The notes beneath the pieces are model-generated. The model saw only the letters and a program-made list of their open reading frames with translations, searched no databases and had not been told where the DNA came from. Both the position numbers and the translations under genes were made by a program. Positions 7,338 to 25,236 of a DNA stretch of 40,975 nt are shown here, in pieces. The stretch covers positions 1-40,975 of the forward strand of contig JAJYDG010000006.1 in NCBI GenBank assembly GCA_021777675.1, read 5' to 3'. Source of the DNA: a bacterium (GTDB lineage Bacteria > Patescibacteriota > Minisyncoccia > Moranbacterales > UBA2206). Positions within the stretch are counted from its first letter, which is position 1. Each line of letters starts with the position of its first letter.

Positions 7338-10300
7338 TTAATTAATTTTTATTGAAGCATCCCATTTTTTATGCTCAAAAGTATAATACACAATCGGAAA
7401 AATAACTAAAGTAAGAAAAGTCGAAGCGGTTAGCCCAAAAATGAGCGCCCAAGCCAACCCCTCCCAAACAGGGTCGGAAATAATCGTAAGGGAACCCAAA
7501 ATTGCCGTAAGCGAAGTAAGCATGATTGGAAGAAGCCTAATGCGCCCCGTTTCAATCAATGCTTCAAGCAATGGGCGCTTCCTTTTTCTAAGCGGTTCAA
7601 GATATTCAAGGTATATAACAGTATTTTTAACTGAGAGTCCGGCAAGCGCGATAACACCAATCATTGAAGTTGCATTAAAATATGTTCCCTTGATTACATT
7701 TAAAATTGCAAAACCAGGGAAAACTCCGATTAGCCCGAGCGGGATGCTTATCATCAGAAGAAGCGGAATAAATAATGATTCGGATTTCGCCGCCAAAATA
7801 AAATAAATGAGAAAAATCGCCACCCCCATCGCCAAGCCCAAATCTCGAAAAACTTCCAGTGTCAACTTCCACTCGCCATCAATTTTAACAAAATAATGCT
7901 GATTGGTTTTTGTATTTTCGTATTCCGCACCAAGCAAATTCCAAGCCACCACTTTTCCATTTCCATCGGGCAACTTATAGGAAAGAATTTTAGGAAACAA
8001 ATCAATAATCGCATAAACAACACTGCGATTTTTCATTTCCGCCGAAAGATAGGTAGTTGGGCGACGATCATCGGATAGAATTGGCAAATCGGTTGCGCTG
8101 TCTGTTTTTTCAATAATTTCCGTAAGCGGAACACTTGTGCCTGTGCGAGTAGGAATTTCAATTTTAGCCAAATCATTTTGCGAATTGCGATCATCTTTTG
8201 GCAATCGAAGTATGATATATTCTTGTTCCGGTTTGCGCAAATTTCCTGGAGTGGTCTGATGATAGAGTCCGATCATTGATCCGGAAAGCGCTATATGCAA
8301 AAGCGTTGAGACATCAACAGGAGTAATTCCTAAAAGTTCCGCTTTATCGGTAAGAATACGATAGGTATAATCCAGTGTGCGATCAGGAGTTGAGCGATTA
8401 ATATCCGTCACACCACGGATTCCGTTTATATCCGCTTCAAAATCACGCGCCATTTGTTCGCGATTTTTTTCATCATTACCTTGAATTTTTAAAAGCAATG
8501 TAGCCAATACCGGAGGTCCCGGCGGATCTTCTACGACACGCATTTTAGTATCGGGATGCGCGCTTAGATAGTTTTTCGCCGAAATGATGACTTCTTGAGC
8601 AATTTTTTCCGAACTCGCACTGCGCGTTTTATTCTCTGTCAAATTCACTCGCAATGTAGCTTGATTTTGAAATACACGAGAAGAACTGCCTCGAAAAAGT
8701 CCATTGAAATCAGCTACCGGAGCGATTCCCACAAAACTTTCCACATTTACCACTTGTGAATTTTCCAAAATTAAACTTTCCAAAATCTTAGTTGTTGTTT
8801 GCGTTTGATTCACTGCTGTGCCAGTCGGCAAATCAATATAGACATAAAATTGGTTTTCATTGGCTTTGGGCAGCATCCGAAAAGGCACAAGTGGAGTAAG
8901 CGGTAGCATTAAAGCCAAAACAAAAATAATTCCGGTAGTAATAATTACCAATTTTCGTTTTTTGGCCGTTTCCAAAAATGCAAAAAGCAATTTGGCGTAT
9001 TGATTTTCCAATTTTTTAAATTGACGAAAGAAAAAACCGTCTTCATAACTTTTTTTCTTTTGCATATTATTTTTAGGCGTAAAAATGAGCGCGAGAAATG
9101 GATTGATAGAAACGGAAAAAATAAGCGAAGCAAAAAGTGCCGTTGGAACAAAAAATGGAATCGGCGCCATATACGGTCCCATCATGCCCGTCACAAAGGC
9201 CATCGGAATAAAAGCAATTGCCATGGTAAGCGTGGAAAGCGCCAATGCCCCACCAACTTCATCCACTGCTCGCACAATCAATTTTACACGATTTTCCTGG
9301 GGATAAAGCCGAAAATAACGTGCCACATTTTCAATCACCACAATTGCATCATCAACTAAAAGTCCCAAGGAAAGAATGAGCGCAAATAATGTAATTCGAT
9401 TAACCGTTTGCCCGGCCAAAAGTCCAACGCCAAAAACCGCCAGAAGCACCAATGGAATTGAAACTGCCGCCATCATAGCATTGCGAAAACCCAAAAATAA
9501 CATAAGCAAAACCGCCACAACCACGATTGATTTTGTTAGATCGAATGTTAGTTTGCCAATCTCATCACCGGCTACTTTTCCTTCATCACGAAGCACGGAA
9601 ACCTTGACATCTCGAGAAATTAATGTGCCCTTGAGTTTTTCCAATCTTGCCAAAACATCAGTTGAAACAGTTGTTGCATTAACTCCTTTCAATTTGGATA
9701 AGGCGATATGCACTACCGGATTTTCATTTTGATTTTTTTGAGCCAATGCCACATAGCTAGTAATTTCTCCTGGTCCATAAGTTACGTCAGCAACATCTCC
9801 CAAGCGAAGCACTGCTCCATTTTTTTGCCTTAAAACCAAATTTTTCAAATCATTAACATTACGAATATTGCCAGAAACATCCAAAATAGGATTTCTTTCT
9901 TGTCCTTCAAGCGGATTAACACTGAAAATATTGTTTGCGCCATTTATTGCTCCAATGATTTCAAAAAGAGAAATGTTTTGTGCGGATAGCTCACCGGCAC
10001 GTGGCTCCACAAAAAGATTATTCACACGACCGCCCCTGATTTCACTCTTTGACACGCCTGGCACCTGCTTTAGCTCATCAGTCACATCAAAAGCCAGCTT
10101 GCGCAATGAGCTTTCCGACAAAGAATCAGAAGAAATACCAATGTCTAAAATTGGTACATCATCAGGATCAACCGCCTGAATAACGGGATTAGCCACACCG
10201 GATGGTTTTAGGGCGATATTATCTTGCAATTTTTGATTAAGTTCGACTTTCGCATTTTCCAGATTGGAACCGACCAGAAACTTTACCATAACAACACTTC

Positions 10301-10649: not shown

Positions 10650-11807
10650 TTATTTCTCCACTACAAAATCACCATCTCGAAGAGAATATTGTCCATCTAC
10701 GACAATTTTATCTCCTACAGCAACACCGGAAAGCACTTCGCGCAATTCTCCCGACGGATCACCAATCGTAATTTTATTTTTTCTGACTATCCCATTATTA
10801 CCAAGCACAAAAACAAAAATATCATCATACTCTCGCAAAATCGCTTTTTCCGGAATAAGTATCACTGCTTTTTCATTTCCGCCAGGAATAGCTACATTGA
10901 CATATTGCCCAAGGAAAAGCGCTTTTTCATTTTCCGCACCCGAAAATCTGACGCGCGCAATCGCCTTTTGTGTTGTTGCTTCAATTGCTCCTGCTACAGA
11001 AAACACATATCCCGAGACAATCGATTCGACTTTTCCATCAGGACTCACCAAAACTTTCTCGCCTTTGGAAATATTTTCGCCAATCGATCCGGGAATGGAA
11101 ATATCAATTTCCAAATCATCTGGAGATGAAATTTCATACAATGGCGTTCCAGGAGCAACAAAAGAACCGATTGTTGTGTACTTTTTAGTGATTATTCCGG
11201 AAAAAGGAGCGATTATTGTCGCATTCTTAGTTGCAATATGCGCCACTAGCGCCCCGCCTTGAGCAACAGCTAAATTTGCGTTAGCTTCTGAATTTTGCAA
11301 ATCTCGCATTTTTTTTGCACTGCTAAGCGCTTCCTCACTAACTTTAATATCTTTTTCAGTCGCACTACCATTAGAATAATTTTCTTTGGTTTTTTTAAGC
11401 ATCGCTTGAGCTTCATTTACTTTTTGATCGTAAAAATCCTTTGTTTCTCCCAAAGTTTTTTGAATTGCGTCTAACGACATTAGGGCGCTTTGATCCATCG
11501 CACGAAGTTCACTGCCATCGATAATAGCAATCGTTTCTCCGGCTTGCACCGAATCCCCTTCAACTTTCAAAAGCTTAGTCACATATCCGCCAACTTTGGG
11601 TGAAATATCAGCCTGTCTCGCACCGCTAACAAAACCGGAAAAATTCCCAACGGAATGAAAATCTGTCGTCATAGCAGATACTGTTTGCACGCGCTTAACC
11701 GGCAAACTAGAATTAACCCTTTCCGCTCCTCTGGCAAAAAAAGCTGTCCAAACAAAATAAATTGCGAAAGAAACAAACAAAAAAACTGCGAAATATTTTT
11801 TATGCAT
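10650..11807 (-). CDS. RND periplasmic adaptor / membrane fusion protein
   Basis: 385 aa. The N-terminal signal anchor (about residues 4-25) is followed by a biotinyl-lipoyl half ('SPKVGGYVTKLLKVEGDSVQAGETIAII'-like region, residues 68-95). Then come a coiled-coil hairpin (about 105-175), the second lipoyl half ('ATIIAPFSGIITKK'), a beta-barrel domain and a membrane-proximal domain. This is the HlyD/AcrA-type partner of the downstream RND permease. It lies 9 bp after the CsoR-family gene and 15 bp before the permease, so one transcript is expected. In a cell without an outer membrane the adaptor could open to the cell wall or outside instead of docking on TolC. Confidence 0.92.
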   Translation of the reverse strand: MHKKYFAVFLFVSFAIYFVWTAFFARGAERVNSSLPVKRVQTVSAMTTDFHSVGNFSGFVSGARQADISPKVGGYVTKLLKVEGDSVQAGETIAIIDGSELRAMDQSALMSLDAIQKTLGETKDFYDQKVNEAQAMLKKTKENYSNGSATEKDIKVSEEALSSAKKMRDLQNSEANANLAVAQGGALVAHIATKNATIIAPFSGIITKKYTTIGSFVAPGTPLYEISSPDDLEIDISIPGSIGENISKGEKVLVSPDGKVESIVSGYVFSVAGAIEATTQKAIARVRFSGAENEKALFLGQYVNVAIPGGNEKAVILIPEKAILREYDDIFVFVLGNNGIVRKNKITIGDPSGELREVLSGVAVGDKIVVDGQYSLRDGDFVVEK

Positions 11808-11816
11808 AATGATTTT

Positions 11817-12059
11817 CTATTTTTTAATTATTTCCTTAAGTAACTTGCCTAGTTTATCTTTATCGCTAACTTTCATTTTCGCCGCGCAATCCATCAGATT
11901 TTGTTCGGTATACTGAACCATTACTCGATCAAAAGATGCTTTAGCCGCTTTCATCTGGATGAGCACGGAAAAACATTCATTATTTTCCGCAAGCATTTTT
12001 TTTATTCCCTCCAGTTGTCCAATTATATTATTTATCAACTGTTCATTGTTTTTTGGCAT
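11817..12059 (-). CDS. CsoR/FrmR-family (DUF156) repressor, CstR-like
   Basis: 80 aa, all-helical family of small tetrameric repressors. Counting from the ATG, the ligand positions are C29, N54 and C58. The spacing 25 and 4 is exactly that of the Cys-His-Cys copper site of CsoR (C36/H61/C65 in M. tuberculosis), but the His is Asn. As I recall, C-N-C with no His is the pattern of CstR, the persulfide sensor of S. aureus (C31/C60), so a reactive-sulfur or dithiol sensor is a real possibility; copper sensing would be unlikely without His. It is the first gene of the RND operon, directly downstream of a promoter containing a perfect palindromic operator, so it most likely represses its own operon. 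There is no Shine-Dalgarno sequence. Confidence 0.9.
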   Translation of the reverse strand: MPKNNEQLINNIIGQLEGIKKMLAENNECFSVLIQMKAAKASFDRVMVQYTEQNLMDCAAKMKVSDKDKLGKLLKEIIKK

Positions 12060-12091
12060 ATTTTTTTATGAGTTAATAGTTAGTGATTCAA

Positions 12092-12121
12092 AGTCTAACA
12101 TACACCCCCAGGGGGTGTCAA
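12092..12121 (-). promoter_or_regulatory. Sigma70-type promoter of the RND operon
   Basis: On the minus strand TTGACA (12116-12121, perfect -35) is followed after 18 bases by TAGACT (12092-12097, 4/6 to TATAAT). The predicted start of transcription lies about 25 bases before the repressor ATG. The operator palindrome fills the spacer and overlaps the -35. Confidence 0.65.
12102..12118. promoter_or_regulatory. CsoR/CstR-type operator (G/C-tract palindrome)
   Basis: ACACCCCC-A-GGGGGTGT is a perfect 8+1+8 palindrome in otherwise A/T-rich DNA. It matches the class of G/C-tract inverted repeats bound by CsoR-family tetramers. It lies between the -35 and -10 hexamers, so bound repressor would block RNA polymerase. 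There is no following T-run, so it is not a terminator. Confidence 0.75.
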
Positions 12122-12158
12122 GAGTTTTACAATTCATCATCTTAATCAATCACTAAAC

Positions 12159-12179
12159 ATACCCGGCCATACCGAGTAT
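12159..12179. repeat. Imperfect inverted repeat upstream of the RND promoter
   Basis: ATACCCGG (12159-12166) and CCGAGTAT (12172-12179) pair at 7 of 8 positions around a 5-nt centre. It lies 38 bp upstream of the RND -35 box and 85 bp beyond the UDG stop. It could be a second regulator site or a weak hairpin after the repair operon. Confidence 0.3.
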
Positions 12180-12263
12180 ATTTATTCAAGAAACAAGCTG
12201 AAACACATAAAAATTCAAAATGAAATTGCGCTTTTTTTTATTACTGCGCATCTTCTTCCAATT

Positions 12264-12848
12264 TTATTTTTTCTCTTCAATTTTTGCAATAATCTTTGGA
12301 ATTCGTTTGAAATCTTTAAACAGCATCTCGCGCATTGAACCATTATAGAGCGCCGCCGCAGGATGATAGAGTGTATAAAAAACTTGCTTACCCATGCCTT
12401 CAATCCCACGACGCATCGCCTTACCGTGAATTTGCGAAATTTTAAAGCCAGGCAAAAATCTTTCCATTGAATGCCTGCCAAGCGTAACAATTAATCTTGG
12501 TTGAATTATTTTTATTTGAGCAAGAAGCCAAGGCCAACAAATGGCAACTTCAGCTGGCAATGGATCACGATTTTCCGGCGGGCGACATTTGCAAACATTG
12601 GCGATATAAATATCCTTGCGTTTAAGTTTAATTGCTTCAAGCATTTCATCCAAAAATTTTCCTGCGGCACCGACAAAAGGCGCTCCGGTCTCGTCTTCTT
12701 TTTTGCCCGGCGCTTCGCCAATAAACATAATTTTCGCCTCGGCCGATCCGGCACCGGGAACTACTTGCAGGCAACCTTTGCGAAGAGAACATTTGGCGCA
12801 GGCAAGCATTTCAATATTTAGTTTTTCAAGTTGCATTTGCTTGGACAT
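12264..12848 (-). CDS. Uracil-DNA glycosylase family 4 (Fe-S, UdgA-like)
   Basis: 194 aa. The [4Fe-4S] cysteines C17, C20, C88 and C104 have family 4 spacing. The catalytic motif G-E-A-P-G sits at 44-48, followed by 'GAPFVGAAGKFLD'. The C-terminal H-P-A-A leucine/histidine loop is near 160. It removes uracil from DNA arising by cytosine deamination, leaving an abasic site. That product is the substrate of endonuclease IV, encoded two genes upstream, so the pair would give a short base-excision route. It lies 5 bp after the phosphoesterase gene. The alternative reading as the phage-type DNA polymerase N-terminal-like UDG domain is less likely at this length. Confidence 0.92.
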   Translation of the reverse strand: MSKQMQLEKLNIEMLACAKCSLRKGCLQVVPGAGSAEAKIMFIGEAPGKKEDETGAPFVGAAGKFLDEMLEAIKLKRKDIYIANVCKCRPPENRDPLPAEVAICWPWLLAQIKIIQPRLIVTLGRHSMERFLPGFKISQIHGKAMRRGIEGMGKQVFYTLYHPAAALYNGSMREMLFKDFKRIPKIIAKIEEKK

Positions 12849-18101: not shown

Positions 18102-19286
18102 TCAGGAGAACATTTTTGCCAACCAGCCAAACAAGCTGAATCCCGAGTCGCTGTTTGTTGCAAATATTTGCAATTTAGCATTTTGCTGGTTCAATGCGTT
18201 AATTTGATCTTGTAAAACTAATTTTACCGCCGGATCATTCGCCTTATTCATCAAATCAGTGAGCACTTTGATTCTGGATTGGTTTTCCGTAATGGCAGTT
18301 TGAATTTCCGCAATACTTCCATATTTCGGCCCGATAAGAAATTTCACCAACCCGCTTCGGTTCTCCACTTTATTTATAGATTCTTCCACTTTAGCTTGTG
18401 AATCATTTTGAGCCTGAGCCACTTCTTTCACCTGCTCTCCAATGCCCTTAGCATCCTCAGTATCGGATTCGCTAACCGTTTTCAGTGTATGCACAAATTG
18501 GGCAACAGTATTTTTGTATTGTTTTGCCACATCCTCATTGCCATTTTCATTGCTATTGTTTTTATTATCTTCAAGTGCCACTTCTACCATTTTATTTAAT
18601 GTTTCTATTTTACTATTGATGATATCGCCAAGAGTTTTAATTTGAACAGGATCTTTAGCGACGCCTGATTGAGCAATCAATGACTTGATTTCTGAAAGTG
18701 AAGATATAAAAGCTTTAAATGCTTTAGGATCAGAAGCTTCCAATGGAGCAATTTCAGCTTCAATCCTGGATACTTTCTTTGTTGTGTCATCAGTATTTTC
18801 CTGAACATTATTTTTATCACCACCCTGTTTTTCAGTTTCACTTTGTTCCTTATTTCCCTGGCTATTATCCGCTTCCATGGATTGATTTTGCGCAGTCTTA
18901 ATCTCGTTCTCGCCATTTTTAATTGCATCTGAGGATGCTTGCTTGTCTTTTTGATTACTATGGCTGCTCTCATCATTATTGTTACTATGATTATCACTAG
19001 TGATACTGTGACTGCTATTTTCATTATTGCCACTATTATTATCATTACTATGGCTGTCATTGCCATGGCTGTCATTGCTATGGCTGTCACTATTACTATG
19101 GCTGTCTTCACTGATATTATTTCCATTACTTCCCTCCTCATCGGCTAAAGCTGTTGGGATTTCCGGTTTAATCTTACTGAAAACATGAGAAAACACAGCG
19201 CCGGTTGTGAATAAAATGCCAATGACGACGACCACAGGCAAGTTTCTTTTCACTTTTTGCATATTTTTGCTTTTAAATAATTGCAT
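18102..19286 (-). CDS. Signal-anchored Ser/His/Asn-repeat surface protein
   Basis: 394 aa. A membrane/signal segment at about 15-37 is followed by a low-complexity extracellular region (about 50-165) rich in Ser, His, Asn, Asp and Gln, with tandem 'DSHSN/DSHGN' units at about 60-85. Next come a charged linker, predicted helices with coiled-coil character (about 170-370) and a C-terminal hydrophobic patch 'FSLFGWLAKMF'. No enzyme motif is recognised. It is the third gene after an ECF sigma factor and a membrane protein, so it could be an effector or surface target of that sigma system. Clustered His might bind divalent metals (inference). An internal ATG at codon 9 is an alternative start; neither start has a Shine-Dalgarno sequence. 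Confidence 0.75.
   Translation of the reverse strand: MQLFKSKNMQKVKRNLPVVVVIGILFTTGAVFSHVFSKIKPEIPTALADEEGSNGNNISEDSHSNSDSHSNDSHGNDSHSNDNNSGNNENSSHSITSDNHSNNNDESSHSNQKDKQASSDAIKNGENEIKTAQNQSMEADNSQGNKEQSETEKQGGDKNNVQENTDDTTKKVSRIEAEIAPLEASDPKAFKAFISSLSEIKSLIAQSGVAKDPVQIKTLGDIINSKIETLNKMVEVALEDNKNNSNENGNEDVAKQYKNTVAQFVHTLKTVSESDTEDAKGIGEQVKEVAQAQNDSQAKVEESINKVENRSGLVKFLIGPKYGSIAEIQTAITENQSRIKVLTDLMNKANDPAVKLVLQDQINALNQQNAKLQIFATNSDSGFSLFGWLAKMFS
19046..19108 (-). repeat. Short tandem repeat encoding D-S-H-(S/G)-N units
   Basis: The plus-strand octamer TGGCTGTC recurs at 19051, 19066, 19081 and 19099, giving periods of 15, 15 and 18 bases. Each unit encodes Asp-Ser-His-Ser/Gly-Asn. The in-frame periods point to slippage-driven growth of the protein repeat rather than a CRISPR or regulatory array. 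Confidence 0.8.
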
Positions 19287-19359
19287 ATTAAGTTAGTTCA
19301 TATGAAACTTTCTTACTTCTATTTATGAATACGGAGACGCTTTCACAATTATTTCACTT

Positions 19360-20136
19360 TTATTCTTCACTCGATACATCTTCATTTGACGAAGTCGTGC
19401 TCCTGTGGGAATCTGATTTTTTGTTTGTTGCCTCCGGCACTTTGGATGTGGGTTTATCTCCAGTGGATTTTACAGCAGATCCTTCAATTCTATTTCCCGA
19501 TTGATTTTCTTTATTGGCATTGGCGCTTTGTGTTTTTTTCGATGACGCGCTTTCACTGTTAATATTTTCATTTTTCAATTCAAGCTTCGAATTATTTGTT
19601 TTTTTATCCTCATTGTATCTATCTGCAGATTTAATATTATCATCATTTTTTTTACCATCAACACCCGTTTTTTCGTAATGATATATGGATTTTATTTTGG
19701 ATTTTAGCGGAATATTTGCGGTTACCGGCACTATTTTACTGTAAATCGGAATCTTCTCCAATTCTTTTTCTATTTCTTCCGCCTTTCCACTGGCGAAGGT
19801 TAAATAGCCAAAAGATAAACTAATAAAAAATAGCACGGCTATTGCCAAGGTAATTTTTATTTTATATAACGAACCAATTTTATTTAACAACCAATAACCT
19901 AAAAACAAAAAAACTCCAAATAAAATCAAATAAACATAAGGAATATTTAACCAATCCAGATTTTCATTCTGCTTGGTTATTATCTCAAGAAGTAAAGCCA
20001 ATGACAATGAACCCAAAATACTGCTTGAAAGCGTACCAATTCCGAAAACAAAATTTTTCATAGCGAAAAACCACCTTGATCTGATTTTCAGATTTTCTCT
20101 TTTGATTCTATCTAAAATTTTTTTATCCAGACTCAT
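19360..20136 (-). CDS. Three-helix membrane protein coupled to an ECF sigma factor (candidate anti-sigma factor)
   Basis: 258 aa. A short basic N terminus (about 22 aa, presumably cytoplasmic) is followed by three membrane segments at about 25-50, 67-86 and 94-113. A long Ser/Lys/Asn/Glu-rich tail (about 165-258) follows and would lie outside the cell. The ATG overlaps the sigma stop by 4 bp (ATGA), the typical arrangement for a sigma/anti-sigma pair. No known anti-sigma domain (zinc-finger, RsgI or RskA type) is recognised, and the cytoplasmic part is short, so anti-sigma activity is an inference from context only. It is followed 73 bp later by the repeat-rich surface protein. Confidence 0.7.
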   Translation of the reverse strand: MSLDKKILDRIKRENLKIRSRWFFAMKNFVFGIGTLSSSILGSLSLALLLEIITKQNENLDWLNIPYVYLILFGVFLFLGYWLLNKIGSLYKIKITLAIAVLFFISLSFGYLTFASGKAEEIEKELEKIPIYSKIVPVTANIPLKSKIKSIYHYEKTGVDGKKNDDNIKSADRYNEDKKTNNSKLELKNENINSESASSKKTQSANANKENQSGNRIEGSAVKSTGDKPTSKVPEATNKKSDSHRSTTSSNEDVSSEE

Positions 20137-20705
20137 TTATTTTCGCTTAGAATTTTTTTAAATCTCTTTTTGGCTCTATTTAATAATGTTCCTACTGTAG
20201 AAATCGGTTTTTTTAAAATATATCCCACCTCTTCGTAACTTTTATCCTCCAAATATTTTAATACCAGCACTTCCCTGAATTTGGCCGGCAACTTTTCCAG
20301 TGATCTGTTAATGCTCTCCTTCTGAGTTTTTTTAATAAATGATTGCTCAATGTTTTCCTCTGAAGCCAAGATCGCAAGCAGTTCTTCGTTGCTTTCCAGT
20401 GAAATATTGCCGGCATGTTTTTTGTATTTTCTCCAATTATCAATACACTCATTGTGGGCAATGCCGTATAGCCAGCTTCCAAAATTTTTGCCTTTTTGGA
20501 AGCTATTTATATTTACGAAAGCTTTAATAAATATATTCTGGACAATATCTTCAATCATCTCCTCGTTGCCACCCGCAATTCTACGCACATAATTAGTAAT
20601 TCTGGATTCATATCGTCTTATTAAAACACCAAAAAACTCCTTGTCCCGAAGAACAAGAGCTATGACATCCTCATCATTTTTTTCTTCCGCCTCTTGAAGA
20701 TTCAC
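20133..20705 (-). CDS. ECF-type RNA polymerase sigma factor
   Basis: 190 aa from a GTG start. Region 2 is at about residues 22-85 ('FFGVLIRRYESRITNYVRRI', then 'EDIVQNIFIKAF' and 'FGSWLYGIAHNECIDNWR'). Region 4 is at about 135-185, with the helix-turn-helix 'SYEEVGYILKKPISTVGTLL'. There is no sigma region 1 or 3, so it belongs to the ECF group. The reading frame is open upstream to a TTG at 20783, but those extra 26 residues are hydrophobic and not family-like. The GTG at 20703-20705 (protein MNLQEAEEKND...) gives a normal N terminus, though without a Shine-Dalgarno sequence. It leads an operon with the coupled membrane protein and the repeat surface protein, pointing to envelope or surface control. 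Confidence 0.88.
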   Translation of the reverse strand: MNLQEAEEKNDEDVIALVLRDKEFFGVLIRRYESRITNYVRRIAGGNEEMIEDIVQNIFIKAFVNINSFQKGKNFGSWLYGIAHNECIDNWRKYKKHAGNISLESNEELLAILASEENIEQSFIKKTQKESINRSLEKLPAKFREVLVLKYLEDKSYEEVGYILKKPISTVGTLLNRAKKRFKKILSENK

Positions 20706-20820
20706 ATCTTTTTTAAAAATCGTAAAACTAATCAAATATCTTGAATGCAATTTTATCACAAAGAAAAACAATAACGCAATCAACTAAATTTATACGATTT
20801 TGCAATATGCGCGAAAGCGG

Positions 20821-20878: not shown

Positions 20879-21433
20879 ATGGAAGAAGAAAAGACGGGTT
20901 TTGAAATTAAGTTCATTAATCCGCGCGCAGTTATTACGGAATTGGAAATTATTCCTGGAATGTCCGTTGCGGATTTCGGTTGCGGGACTGGCTATTTCAC
21001 ATTTCCCTTGGCGGAAAAAGTCAAACAAACAGGGCGCGTCTATGCTTTGGATATTCTTACCGACAAACTGGAAGCAATTGAATCGCAAGCAAAGCTACTA
21101 GGGCTAAGCAACCTCATCACCAAAAGAGTTAATTTGGAAGTCATCAATGGGTCAAAATTGGAAGAAAATAGCTTGGATTGGGTTTTTTTGGTTAATATGC
21201 TTTTTCAAAATAAAAATAAAGAAGTAATTATTCAAGAAGCGATGCGCGTTTTAAAGCCTGGCGGAAAAATTCTAATAATTGAATGGGATGAAAAGGATGC
21301 CTCATTTGGACCGGATAGGACATTGCGTATTTCTCGAAATAAAATTTCCGAGTTGGCGCAAAACAGTGGATTGTCAATGGTGAAAGAAATAAAAATCAGC
21401 GACTTTCATTTCGGAATAATTTTTGAAAAATAG
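20879..21433 (+). CDS. Class I SAM-dependent methyltransferase
   Basis: 184 aa, single-domain. SAM-binding motif I is 'VADFGCGTGYF' (about 29-39), motif II acidic 'ALDIL' follows, and the post-I/IV region contains 'LDWVFLVNMLFQ' and 'LKPGGKILIIEW'. The fold is Methyltransf_11/UbiE-like. The substrate cannot be told from sequence. It starts the plus-strand block, divergent from the ECF sigma gene, and ends 11 bp before the solute-binding lipoprotein, so the two are probably co-transcribed. Confidence 0.88.
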   Translation: MEEEKTGFEIKFINPRAVITELEIIPGMSVADFGCGTGYFTFPLAEKVKQTGRVYALDILTDKLEAIESQAKLLGLSNLITKRVNLEVINGSKLEENSLDWVFLVNMLFQNKNKEVIIQEAMRVLKPGGKILIIEWDEKDASFGPDRTLRISRNKISELAQNSGLSMVKEIKISDFHFGIIFEK

Positions 21434-21444
21434 AAAAATAAAAG

Positions 21445-22824
21445 ATGAATGGATTTAAAAAAACCAAAAAAATATTGAGCGGTTCGATGATTCTTTTTTT
21501 TCTTTTGCTTATTTCCGGATGCGGATTGAAAAAAACTACTCCGAATTATAAAGTAAATCTGGAAATTTGGGGGCCGGTTGATGACGCCGATGCCTATCAA
21601 GAAATAATTGACAACTACAGAAAAATCAACCCCAATATTGGAACTATTGTCTATAAAAAACAACGCATTGATACTTATCAAAACGATCTGATTGAAGCAA
21701 TGGCTTCCGGACAAGGACCGGATATTTTTCTTATACACAATGATTGGTTAAGCAATTTTTCCGACAAAACCACTCCAGCCCCCAAAGACATTCTAAATGA
21801 ACAAACATTCCGCAATAATTTTGTGGATGTTTGCGCCAATGATTTCATTTCCAAGGGAGATATTTTTGCCGTTCCGCTAACTGTCAATTCTTTAGCGCTT
21901 TACTATAATAAAGACTTGTTTAATGCTTCCGGAATTGTCGCCCCGCCAACAACTTGGGATGAATTTTCCGCCGATGCGCAAAAATTAACTAAAATAAATT
22001 CTTTCGGTGAAATTGTTCAATCCGGAGTAGCAATGGGCACAGCCTACAATATTAATCGTTCGACAGATGTTTTGAATATGTTAATGCTCCAAAATGGCGC
22101 AACGATGTCATCGGATTCTCAGGGAAAAATGCTTTTAAGTTTTGATTCAAAATCAATCAATGCCCTAAATTTTTATATGCAATTCGCAAAATCCGGCTCA
22201 GCGAATTATACATGGAACCCAACCCTGCACTATTCCATTGATGCTTTTTCCGAAGGAACGCTAGCGATGATGCTGAATTATTCCTGGCAAATCGATGCCA
22301 TTAAAAGCAAATCTCCCAAATTAAATTTTGCCATTGCCCCTCTGCCTCAACTTTCCACTTCAAACACAGTAAATTTTGCCAATTATTGGGCATTTGCCGT
22401 AGCAAAAAATAAAACCACTCAAACAGGAGGAGTCGGAAATACTGCTCCGGTTTCCAATGATCTGCGCGTCAAAGAGGCTTGGAAATTTCTCACCTATCTC
22501 ACAACCAAAAAAATTTCATCTCAAGCAAACGCATCCGCTCCGTCCGGTGGTCTGGGAAAGCAATATGATCCCAATTTCGATCCGGCGGATAATTATCTAA
22601 AAAAAACCAGCCAGCCAGCCGCGCGAAGAGATTTGCTTGAAAAACAAAAAAGTGATGTCAATTTAGGAGCATTCGCCCAAGGCAATTTAATTGCCAAAGA
22701 TTTTCCAGTAAACAATCCGGCTTATCTGGAAACAACTTTTGCAGAAATGATTGATTCAATTAACAAAGGTCTTGCGGGAACTTCTGACGCTCTTTCTAAA
22801 GCAATAAGCAAAATAAATCATTAA
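21445..22824 (+). CDS. Extracellular solute-binding lipoprotein (family 1-like), no ABC permease nearby
   Basis: 459 aa. The N-terminal signal has a lipobox L-I-S-G-C26, so lipid attachment is at Cys26. The mature part has the carbohydrate/oligosaccharide-binding-protein pattern: 'VNLEIWGPVDDADAYQEII' start, 'SGQGPDIFLIHNDWL', 'AVPLTVNSLALYYNKDLF', 'PPTTWDEF' and the C-terminal 'EAWKFLTYLTT'. It would capture a sugar or oligomer at the cell surface. No ABC permease or ATPase is present in the window. Instead it is followed 10 bp later by VirB2-like genes, so it may serve as a surface-binding or scavenging protein rather than a classical importer subunit, or may use permeases elsewhere. Confidence 0.9.
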   Translation: MNGFKKTKKILSGSMILFFLLLISGCGLKKTTPNYKVNLEIWGPVDDADAYQEIIDNYRKINPNIGTIVYKKQRIDTYQNDLIEAMASGQGPDIFLIHNDWLSNFSDKTTPAPKDILNEQTFRNNFVDVCANDFISKGDIFAVPLTVNSLALYYNKDLFNASGIVAPPTTWDEFSADAQKLTKINSFGEIVQSGVAMGTAYNINRSTDVLNMLMLQNGATMSSDSQGKMLLSFDSKSINALNFYMQFAKSGSANYTWNPTLHYSIDAFSEGTLAMMLNYSWQIDAIKSKSPKLNFAIAPLPQLSTSNTVNFANYWAFAVAKNKTTQTGGVGNTAPVSNDLRVKEAWKFLTYLTTKKISSQANASAPSGGLGKQYDPNFDPADNYLKKTSQPAARRDLLEKQKSDVNLGAFAQGNLIAKDFPVNNPAYLETTFAEMIDSINKGLAGTSDALSKAISKINH

Positions 22825-22834
22825 CTAACTCAAA

Positions 22835-23749
22835 ATGCAAAATAAAAAATATTTTCTGGGCCTTATATTATTTGTTCTCTTTTTTTTCATCAAAATTGAT
22901 AGTGTTTTTGCTGATAGATATTGTTATTTTGCTACTGACTCTAAATGTGAAAAAGTAGATTCTTCTGGCAAGTGTGCTGATGGCGGCACACTTTGTGATG
23001 ATGGCGTATCTTGCGACGGAAGTACTGGTTGCGCCACTTCAACAACCAGCGATTATAAATGTTGCGTAAATACAGGGGAATCGTCAAAATGCAATGACTC
23101 TACTACAAGTGGTTATAAAACAAAGACAGAATGCACAAAAAAAAATGGCACACCAAAAAGCGATGCCTGCTCATCCATATCCACTTGTTCGCAATATTCC
23201 GGTGGTGGCGGTTCCAGCTCCTCCACAACAACCTCCGTATCATTTACCAACCCGGCTTCTTTCAGTGACATCAATGGCTTCCTCACCGCATTGCTCACCG
23301 CACTTAAAGGTTTCATTGTAACATTGGCGATAATTTTTATTGTAATCGGCGGAATTCTTTATATGCTTTCAGGGGGGAATCCCGGCATGGTTAAGCGCGC
23401 CAAAGATTGTTGGTTATTTTCCGTAATCGGTTTTGCCATTGTAATCGCCGCGCCCACATTCCTCAAGCAAGTCCAGCTGATTATGGGATCCAATTTATCC
23501 GGAACGGAAAGCGCCCTATCGATTGGACAAATCGCCACTAATGTCCTAAACTTTCTCTTGTCAATGTTGGGAATTATTGCTACAATCAGTCTAGTGATTG
23601 CCGGAGGAATGTATATGACATCATATGGCGATGAAAAACAAACCACCGCAGGAAAAAATATGGCAAAGTGGGCAATCATCGGAATTTCAATCGCTCTAAT
23701 TTCACTCATTGCCATTCAACAAATTTCCAAAATAATAACAGGAAAATAA
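22835..23749 (+). CDS. Cys-rich ectodomain fused to two VirB2/TrbC-like membrane modules
   Basis: 304 aa. A signal peptide (about 1-26, ending SVFA-D) is followed by a secreted region with 12 cysteines (about 29-118) including a 'KCCV' motif. A Gly/Ser/Thr linker follows, then two successive two-helix units of the VirB2/TrbC pilin type: 'FIVTLAIIFIVIGGILYML..' with 'KRAKDCWLFSVIGFAIVIAA', and 'LLSMLGIIATISLVIAGGMY' with 'KNMAKWAIIGISIALISLIA'. Each has the hydrophobic-turn-basic-hydrophobic pattern of such pilins. The doubled module is unusual. An even number of cysteines suggests disulfides outside the cell. It begins 10 bp after the binding lipoprotein and starts a run of four related genes. 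A structural part of a surface appendage or secretion channel is inferred; no VirB4-type ATPase is visible here. Confidence 0.75.
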   Translation: MQNKKYFLGLILFVLFFFIKIDSVFADRYCYFATDSKCEKVDSSGKCADGGTLCDDGVSCDGSTGCATSTTSDYKCCVNTGESSKCNDSTTSGYKTKTECTKKNGTPKSDACSSISTCSQYSGGGGSSSSTTTSVSFTNPASFSDINGFLTALLTALKGFIVTLAIIFIVIGGILYMLSGGNPGMVKRAKDCWLFSVIGFAIVIAAPTFLKQVQLIMGSNLSGTESALSIGQIATNVLNFLLSMLGIIATISLVIAGGMYMTSYGDEKQTTAGKNMAKWAIIGISIALISLIAIQQISKIITGK

Positions 23750-23797
23750 CAGAAAAAAGATACAAGTAATAAAATAAAAATAGAAGGAGGTGTTAAT

Positions 23798-24175
23798 ATG
23801 AAAAATAAAATTAAAATATTAGGCTATTCAGCTTCATCATTGTTGCTTTTGGCGCCATTTACTGTTTTTGGCGACGGCGGATTTTCCGTTCCTGCCAATG
23901 GCACCGGAAATTTAAAAAGTACGAGCGTCGGCACGCTTCTCGGAACAATTTTAAATTGGCTCCTATCGGCAGTGGGAATTTTAGGCGTTATCGGTTTTGC
24001 CGTTTCCGGCATTATGTATCTGACAGCGGCGGGAGATGACAAGCGAATTGCAACCGCCAAAAGTTTTATGCTCTATGCAGTTATCGGAGTAATTGTCGCT
24101 CTTGTCGGACTGATCGCTGTTAATGCTTTGAGTAGCATATTTGTCAGTAATAGTGGATCGATTTCCGGGAATTAA
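23798..24175 (+). CDS. VirB2/TrbC-like small membrane (pilin-like) protein
   Basis: 125 aa. A signal peptide (about 1-25) is followed by a short polar stretch and two membrane helices (about 47-70 and 88-112) joined by 'TAAGDDKRIATAK'. This matches VirB2/TrbC pilin topology. It has the strongest ribosome binding site in this block: AAGGAGGTG at 23783-23791, seven bases before the ATG. A terminator follows at 24190-24228. Strong initiation plus its own terminator suggests high expression, as expected for a major structural subunit. It is closely related to the next gene, sharing a 34-base identical stretch. Confidence 0.8.
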   Translation: MKNKIKILGYSASSLLLLAPFTVFGDGGFSVPANGTGNLKSTSVGTLLGTILNWLLSAVGILGVIGFAVSGIMYLTAAGDDKRIATAKSFMLYAVIGVIVALVGLIAVNALSSIFVSNSGSISGN

Positions 24176-24189
24176 TTGGCAAAAAAATG

Positions 24190-24228
24190 AAAAAGCAGTC
24201 TCAATTTATTTGCGGACTGTTTTTTTTG
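24190..24228 (+). terminator. Intrinsic terminator between VirB2-like genes
   Basis: GCAGTC (24195-24200) pairs with GACTGT (24215-24220), extended by A/T pairs, and is followed by T8. It lies 15 bp after the stop of the 125-aa gene. Confidence 0.65.
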
Positions 24229-24261
24229 TTTGCAGATTGTTTTTTCTTTTTTATTTTTTAT

Positions 24262-24269
24262 GCTATACT
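24262..24269 (+). promoter_or_regulatory. Extended -10 promoter element
   Basis: TG-C-TATACT is a near-consensus extended -10 located 29 bp before the 131-aa VirB2-like start and after the terminator. No good -35 is seen at 17 bp, which extended -10 promoters tolerate. Confidence 0.45.
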
Positions 24270-24297
24270 GTTTTTATAAATATTAAATTAACATTTT

Positions 24298-24693
24298 ATG
24301 TTAAAAATGAAAAACAAAATAATAAATATTGTTTTATGGATGGCTATTTTTTGGGAAGTAAATGTAAATATTACACTAGCAGCAACAACAGATACGCCAA
24401 CAAACTTAAACACCGGATTATCCAAATTAATGAATTTTGGTCTTAGTGGAACATCTATATTTGAACTCTTAAGCACCATTCTCAATTGGTTGCTTTCGCT
24501 TGTCGGGATTTTGGGCGTTCTTGGTTTTGTTGTTTCCGGAATTATGTATCTAACGGCTGCTGGAGACACGAAAGCAATCGATAGAGCCAAAAGTATTATG
24601 CTCTATTCAGTTATCGGAGTAATTGTCGCTCTTGTCGGACTAATCGTTGTTTATGCGCTTAGTTATATTTTTGTTGGAGGCACTTATGTTTAA
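24298..24693 (+). CDS. VirB2/TrbC-like small membrane (pilin-like) protein, paralogue
   Basis: 131 aa, or 128 aa if translation starts at the second ATG (24307). A signal peptide (to about residue 28) is followed by a polar stretch and two membrane helices. The basic turn is 'TAAGDTKAIDRAK' and the second helix 'YSVIGVIVALVGLIVVYAL'. It is very close to the preceding gene in the membrane half and divergent in the exposed N-terminal half. There is no Shine-Dalgarno sequence. Its own promoter (extended -10 at 24262-24269) separates it from the upstream copy, so the two subunits could be differently expressed. Confidence 0.78.
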   Translation: MLKMKNKIINIVLWMAIFWEVNVNITLAATTDTPTNLNTGLSKLMNFGLSGTSIFELLSTILNWLLSLVGILGVLGFVVSGIMYLTAAGDTKAIDRAKSIMLYSVIGVIVALVGLIVVYALSYIFVGGTYV

Positions 24694-24715
24694 TTAAATT
24701 CAATAGTGTTGCTAT

Positions 24716-25171
24716 ATGAAAAATAATTTAAAAATAAATTTGCTTTTGCTTTCCATTTTATTCGCAAGCCTTTTCCCGCTAACAAAAAAAGCGTTTGCCA
24801 GCAACACCGACTGCAGCGCCGTTCCGGGTAATTGCAAGACATCTTGCGCGACAACAGAATCGGAAGGAAGCGCTTTCTGCAGTGATTCCAGTCAAAAATG
24901 CTGTGTAACAATAGGACTTCCCACTAATACCGACGGGGTTTTTGGAATTCTTTCCAATACACTTAATTTTTTATTAAGCTTGGTGGGCATTCTATCTCTA
25001 TTGGGATTTGTCCTGGCAGGATTTCAATATTTTTTCATGGCATTTGATGAAAAATCAGTTGAAAAAGCTAAAAAAACATTTTCCGCTTCAGTTATTGGCT
25101 TGGTTATTGTTCTCTCGGGACTGATTATTATTTACGCCATCAGCAAAACCATTTTCGGATTGTCTCTTTAG
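24716..25171 (+). CDS. Cys-rich VirB2/TrbC-like membrane protein
   Basis: 151 aa. A signal peptide (about 1-28, ending AFAS) is followed by a 40-residue ectodomain with six cysteines ending in 'KCCVTIG'. Two membrane helices follow with the turn 'AFDEKSVEKAKK'. It repeats in single-module form the plan of the 304-aa protein. It follows the previous gene by 22 bp with no Shine-Dalgarno sequence and ends at a bidirectional terminator. Paired cysteines suggest a disulfide-stabilised exposed part, perhaps a minor or tip subunit (inference). Confidence 0.75.
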   Translation: MKNNLKINLLLLSILFASLFPLTKKAFASNTDCSAVPGNCKTSCATTESEGSAFCSDSSQKCCVTIGLPTNTDGVFGILSNTLNFLLSLVGILSLLGFVLAGFQYFFMAFDEKSVEKAKKTFSASVIGLVIVLSGLIIIYAISKTIFGLSL

Positions 25172-25179
25172 CCAAATAA

Positions 25180-25219
25180 AAAAAGACCGATCTTGCATAA
25201 CTGTGCAATTCGGTCTTTT
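25180..25219. terminator. Bidirectional terminator between convergent genes
   Basis: AAAAAGACCGA/TCGGTCTTTTT form an 11-bp stem (about 25180-25190 and 25209-25219). An inner TTGCA/TGCAA stem extends it. It lies between the plus-strand pilin-like block and the minus-strand membrane module, with A- and T-tracts on both sides. Confidence 0.85.
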
Positions 25220-25236
25220 TCCTCCTTTCCCCCAAT

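Follow-up and report, generated by a model that had tools for sequence, protein, structure and literature searches.

An orphan solute-binding lipoprotein gene conserved ahead of type IV secretion pilin arrays suggests an additional component of the Patescibacteria secretion apparatus

Arrays of VirB2-like pilin genes belonging to the type IV secretion systems (T4SS) of Patescibacteria have been described (Quinonero-Coronel et al. 2025, PMC12102498), and a T4SS array is cited in that paper as essential for epibiotic growth in one tractable strain, Ca. S. epibionticum ML1. Here, we analyse an array located at positions 21445–25171 of contig JAJYDG010000006.1 (the whole 40,975-nucleotide stretch is referred to below as the window), which comes from the 879 kb metagenome-assembled genome of a small host-dependent bacterium of the Moranbacteria (Patescibacteria). 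As in the published arrays, tandem pilins of the PF18895 (T4SS_pilin) family diverge from each other within the array, and a monoderm-type VirB4 is encoded in the same genome; in the published arrays, too, pilins are often found away from virB4. Unlike the published arrays, this one is headed by a conserved orphan solute-binding protein (SBP) gene, and one of its pilin genes has a conserved strong Shine–Dalgarno (SD) site and a terminator. The main text of PMC12102498 does not refer to any solute-, substrate-, or sugar-binding protein, and no report of SBP–pilin linkage was found in the open-access literature (subscription papers were outside the search). Our results suggest that the orphan SBP encoded ahead of pilin genes in this genome and in ~100 relatives is an unrecognised, probably glycan-binding, part of the T4SS. 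While the secretion system itself is known, a conserved, unreported, and seemingly exapted SBP component is apparently new.

Two other described systems resemble parts of the locus. The pilins show sub-threshold profile similarity (18.8 to 29 bits for all four, cut-off 40) to the Mbov_0395 family of pilin-like conjugal transfer proteins (NF045849) from integrative and conjugative elements of mycoplasmas, which also have a VirB4-type ATPase related to the VirB4 found here; Mbov_0395 belongs to mobile elements, whereas the array described here is chromosomal and includes an SBP. The SBP shares its fold, its size, a lipid anchor in most members, and conserved aromatic residues with the SBPs of carbohydrate ABC transporters, such as MalE, Lin1841 (5ysb), and CpMnBP1 (4r9f). 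Unlike MalE-type proteins, it has no permease in its genome, its constant genetic partner is a T4SS pilin, and some Yanofskybacteria members of its family have an N-terminal hydrophobic anchor and no lipobox.

The locus consists of five plus-strand genes in a row, separated by gaps of 10, 48, 122, and 22 bp. The first (21445–22824) codes for a 459-amino acid SBP_bac_1/8 lipoprotein (PF01547, 4.3e-27; PF13416, 5.6e-27) with lipobox SGCG and a maltodextrin/oligosaccharide-binding fold. The other four code for small membrane pilins matching PF18895: pilin 1 (22835–23749, 304 amino acids, 2.9e-15 over two stretches), in which a signal peptide and a Cys-rich N-terminal domain precede two tandem T4SS_pilin modules; pilin 2 (23798–24175, 125 amino acids, 1.9e-8), the probable major pilin; pilin 3 (24298–24693, 131 amino acids, or 128 if translation starts from the ATG at 24307, 3.3e-10); and pilin 4 (24716–25171, 151 amino acids, 5.9e-9), with a six-Cys N-terminal module ahead of the pilin module. 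A first-pass annotation of the window, made from its sequence, gave correct coordinates for these five genes and left out a methyltransferase gene (20879–21433) that precedes them. In a genome-wide search, all five pilin modules scored above the Pfam gathering threshold of PF18895 (curated cut-off 26.6 bits), with 34.7 to 56.5 bits per protein. Thus, the annotated four genes with five VirB2-like two-helix modules are indeed T4SS pilin genes, of the PF18895 family; PF04956 (TrbC/VirB2) itself had no match up to E = 1 among the four pilins. The objection, foreseen in the annotation, that the small proteins are holins or otherwise unrelated membrane peptides was rejected, since the array is conserved and every module exceeds the PF18895 cut-off. 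Pilins 2 and 3 share 77% identity in their modules, and the remaining pairs 21–47%, which is in line with the divergent arrays of PMC12102498. An AF2 model of pilin 2, of moderate confidence (hairpin at residues 44–119; mean pLDDT 74.6, hairpin about 74–91), has helices at residues 4–23, 44–76, and 81–119, corresponding to a signal peptide and, after it, a hydrophobic hairpin of two helices.

The linkage of the SBP gene to pilin genes, which the first-pass annotation had proposed looking for across genomes of the candidate phyla radiation, proved strongly conserved, which is the opposite of the outcome named there as a refutation. A search of GTDB genome contigs for the SBP yielded 80 loci, 78 of them assessable; in 71 of the 78, the start of a pilin gene lies no more than 800 bp downstream of the SBP gene, on the same strand. 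A pilin gene is found within 7 kb downstream in 6 further loci, and in those examined the first pilin-family gene bears an SLT or lysozyme-like domain. A pilin gene on the opposite strand next to the SBP gene was observed in none of the 80 loci. When genomes were drawn evenly across the phylum (380 genomes), 27 of the 28 assessable loci among the 29 best were pilin-linked, and so were 7 of 7 additional loci. The upstream neighbour of the SBP gene varies by clade, while the SBP–pilin junction is constant: in the larger set, a methyltransferase gene is found upstream in 51 loci, a GalU-like (UTP-glucose-1-phosphate uridylyltransferase-like) gene in 33, and a YifB/ComM-like gene in 16, the last two being named from sequence. 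Among the 80 GTDB loci, a methyltransferase homologue is directly upstream in 48. Chance adjacency or mere inherited synteny was rejected as an explanation, since the junction is kept over ~100 loci with three different upstream genes. Two loci (L107 and L099) contain a contiguous SBP–pilin(s)–PrgI–TrsD–VirB4 series, and in a third (L111), the first gene 3′ of the SBP gene codes for a pilin fused to a transglycosylase (SLT) domain. In a tree of SBP sequences, pilin-linked members group strongly (9 label changes versus 37 in shuffles). Judged from these genomic data, the predicted T4SS association has good support across much of the phylum and in the lineage of this genome, though it does not extend to every orthologue.

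No BPD_transp_1 (type I ABC) permease was found in the window's genome, while all control genomes were positive. The SBP is therefore an orphan genome-wide, and the annotated lack of an ABC transporter next to the lipoprotein gene extends, for permeases, to the entire genome. The same holds for 30 of the 34 genomes of the family, a permease being present in the other 4. In the even draw of 380 genomes, the SBP was detected at E ≤ 1e-20 in 284, and any BPD_transp_1 permease in 52 (none in 328); the SBP thus occurs without a permease in at least 232 genomes. Its gene is present as a single copy in almost all of the genomes searched. The simple reading of the protein as the SBP of an ordinary ABC importer was rejected, there being no permease, and the annotation of such genes calls for correction: by homology they read as ABC sugar transport, yet most genomes that carry them encode no type I permease. 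A role in nutrient uptake could still be imagined if the SBP delivered its ligand to an unrecognised non-BPD permease or to the T4SS channel, and if the pilus belonged to a scavenging device. In favour are the intact oligosaccharide SBP fold and the ABC ATPase domains of the genome; these domains are, however, not assigned to any importer, no type I permease is encoded, and the constant neighbour of the SBP gene is a pilin gene rather than a transporter gene. We consider such a role quite improbable.

The SBP was modelled by AF2 with a pLDDT of 90.7, and its best matches among solved structures are oligosaccharide-binding proteins, with 5ysb at the top (Z 37.6, rmsd 2.8, 365 residues). Most SBPs of Moranbacteria and Falkowbacteria have a lipobox, whereas several Yanofskybacteria SBPs have an N-terminal hydrophobic anchor instead. 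Within the family, 44 positions are conserved at ≥95%, and 17 of these are aromatic. In maltose-binding protein (MBP), Trp230 and Trp340 are sugar-stacking residues. In a remote profile alignment (~20% identity) to an MBP sequence, Trp, Tyr, or Phe is found at the aligned place of Trp230 in 67 of 78 sequences, and of Trp340 in 76 of 78. The conserved positions may thus mark a putative ligand-binding site, and the SBP probably retains glycan binding. These data bear on another explanation, in which ligand binding has been lost and the fold reused as a scaffold, so that the SBP would serve T4SS structure or assembly in place of absent VirB5/VirB7/VirB8-type parts. The linkage of the SBP gene to pilin genes and, in two loci, to PrgI–TrsD–VirB4 would be expected of such a factor, and VirB8 and outer core parts are rare in surveys of Patescibacteria (PMC12102498). 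The many invariant aromatic residues and the aromatics at two sugar-stacking positions argue instead for a kept binding site, though this argument, made from sequence alignment, is not decisive. A glycan theme recurs, in the SBP fold and in its GalU-like and Wzy_C neighbours, and for this reason we prefer glycan binding to a purely structural role; we regard the scaffold explanation as unlikely.

Apart from the pilins, no T4SS parts were seen in the window, and searches for VirB4 found nothing on its contig. The first-pass statement that VirB4, VirB6, and a coupling ATPase are lacking thus stands for the window; for VirB4 it does not extend to the genome, where the suggested search for VirB4/TrbE ATPases elsewhere revealed a VirB4 ATPase of the CD1110 family on another contig (C19:77511–79157; 364.9 bits, NCBIfam cut-off 325; PF19044, 2.2e-31). 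A VirB4 of this family is encoded in 32 of the 34 family genomes, this one included. The contig 19 locus (L018) codes for PrgI (PF12666, 2e-9), a TrsD-like protein (3.9e-8, below the cut-off), VirB4, a TraG-type ATPase, a 938-amino acid surface protein, and two pilin-module fusions. A 774-amino acid polytopic protein adjoining PrgI has no Pfam or NCBIfam match and is VirB6-like by position only, and the coupling protein (VirD4) profile PF02534 gave a match below its cut-off only. PrgI/VirB3, TrsD-like, VirB4, and SLT/VirB1 parts are therefore all present in the genome. In the two pilin fusions (11372–12418 and 12445–13320 of L018), pilin modules are joined to an SLT domain, giving a VirB1–VirB2 fusion, and to an unassigned C-terminal domain. 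The SBP is missing from two family genomes (G001 and G024), which keep the T4SS locus and have no full pilin array, a pattern that fits joint loss of the SBP and the array; incomplete assemblies could also explain it. In a third genome (G014), an apparent array without the SBP lies where the contig ends.

The first-pass annotation noted one subunit with a very strong ribosome binding site and its own terminator, as would be expected of a major pilin. Both features were confirmed. Pilin 2 has a near-perfect SD site, AGAAGGAGGTG (23780–23794), with a duplex energy of -14.8 kcal/mol, and is followed by a terminator-like hairpin with a U-run at about 24194–24225 (minimum free energy -15.3 kcal/mol, z -3.76 relative to dinucleotide shuffles). 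The signature is conserved: in most relatives among the Moranbacteria and Yanofskybacteria, a single pilin gene of each array has an exceptional SD site, usually together with a terminator hairpin of its own. SD duplex energies below -9.5 were observed for 45 pilin genes (the window counted in), nearly always one per array; start codons were picked by a script partly on SD strength, so absolute values lean strong, while the contrast within arrays is large. A strong hairpin is located 3′ of most of the 45, and an SD site of this strength was found in 0 of 77 SBP genes. The idea that pilin 2 is an abundant major subunit is supported by these features of its gene, and the conserved signature offers a simple rule for picking the putative major pilin of each array.

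The reading that we favour is that an ABC-type sugar-binding protein was recruited as a glycan-binding accessory of a T4SS pilus with a role in contact; we put its probability at about one half. The methyltransferase–SBP–pilin unit would be the surface part of a Patescibacteria-type (MPF-FATA-related) T4SS, with pilin 2 as the abundant subunit and pilins 1, 3, and 4 as minor or specialised ones; assembly of all four would depend on the VirB4/PrgI/VirB6-like/SLT-pilin machine, the genes of which lie on a different contig of this genome. Recruited from sugar import, the SBP would be lipid-anchored at the outer face of the cytoplasmic membrane, with no ABC permease to receive its ligand. At the foot of the apparatus, it would bind a glycan of the host envelope, of peptidoglycan, or of the capsule of the cell itself, and could in this way assist in anchoring, orienting, or gating the pilus when contact is made. 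Physical membership of the SBP in the T4SS, its retained binding of a glycan, and its role in contact are what we infer from the genomic data. Of the surface appendage proposed in the first-pass annotation, the T4SS pilins, their linkage to an orphan SBP, the major-subunit signature, and a VirB4 encoded elsewhere have stood; the lipoprotein as capture component is the role that we favour for it. More tentatively, the SBP may have been exapted as a conserved core T4SS component across several Patescibacteria classes, as a glycan receptor through which recognising the host envelope would trigger or guide pilus deployment. A widely conserved orphan SBP tied to a pilin array is a concrete candidate receptor for the still unexplained way in which ultrasmall Patescibacteria recognise hosts and hold on to them.

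Several observations weigh against the favoured reading. Gene neighbourhood is not the same as physical association. The alignment to MBP is, as said, a remote one. A Foldseek search of the pilin model against PDB gave no match with E ≤ 0.001, as expected of a two-helix hairpin, and pilin identity rests on the Pfam profile. Across the phylum, 29 of 40 lower-scoring (mid-scoring) SBP orthologues have pilin-free surroundings, and several orthologous SBP clades in the tree are unlinked; the neighbours of the unlinked genes include genes for O-antigen ligase-like (Wzy_C; next gene in L204, L217, and L226) or Ig-domain membrane proteins. The ancestral role of the SBP therefore need not involve pilins, and a universal link within the phylum was rejected. 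The SBP may be a more general orphan surface protein that became associated with the pilus in particular lineages. These orthologues lead to a further explanation, in which the SBP acts in Patescibacteria as a general, orphan glycan-binding surface protein, placed before pilin genes by shared regulation of surface genes without a common machine. It would account for the presence of the family in 284 of 380 genomes, for the Wzy_C and Ig-domain neighbours, and for the GalU-like gene upstream in many linked loci. The immediate SBP–pilin junction, however, outlasts changes upstream and is more specific than generic clustering, and two loci run on into PrgI–TrsD–VirB4. The probability of this explanation is, in our view, low. 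In three unlinked loci (L188, L189, and L200), the gene after the SBP gene codes for a large Ig-domain (Big_7) membrane protein and is followed by an alaS-like gene.

The double-module pilin architecture recurs in relatives, and the length of the N-terminal Cys domain is very variable. Cys-rich extensions of such pilins (22835–23270 and 24800–24910 in the window; 9963–11402 in L088; 4746–6113 in L105) have 0 to 30 Cys ahead of the first module, depending on the species, with apparent repeat units ending in CC and sometimes with the Cys spacing of beta-defensins; they are candidates for tip or adhesin domains that evolve fast. The idea that minor pilins generally have a beta-defensin-like six-Cys domain was rejected, the spacing being present in pilins of 7 of 80 loci only.

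In 8 of 42 relatives, against an expectation of 0.04, a perfect DnaA box, TTATCCACA, is found in either orientation within 130 bp 3′ of the major pilin gene, at positions 10232 (L076), 7998 (L077), 11248 (L081), 11148 (L083), 11375 (L087), 11018 (L090), 10283 (L095), and 12062 (L119). The box is usually located within the terminator hairpin, the stems of which differ among species, and is absent from the equivalent place in the window. It could tie the expression of the pilin to replication; alternatively, it may be no more than a curious inheritance.

The methyltransferase gene (20879–21433, plus strand), the first of the conserved unit, ends 11 bp 5′ of the SBP gene and codes for a 184-amino acid class I SAM methyltransferase of the UbiE/ArsM-like superfamily (Methyltransf_31, 4.8e-18), with NCBIfam matches at the superfamily level only. 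At the other end, the array is closed by a strong hairpin terminator (25180–25220; minimum free energy -20.2 kcal/mol, z -7.64). A generic promoter scan returned no more sites than were found in shuffled sequences. Divergent from the unit, a minus-strand cluster (18102–20783) consists of an ECF-type sigma factor gene (20133–20783) and, after it, genes for a membrane protein and for an exported protein rich in Ser and Asn; the sigma factor is a possible regulator of surface genes.

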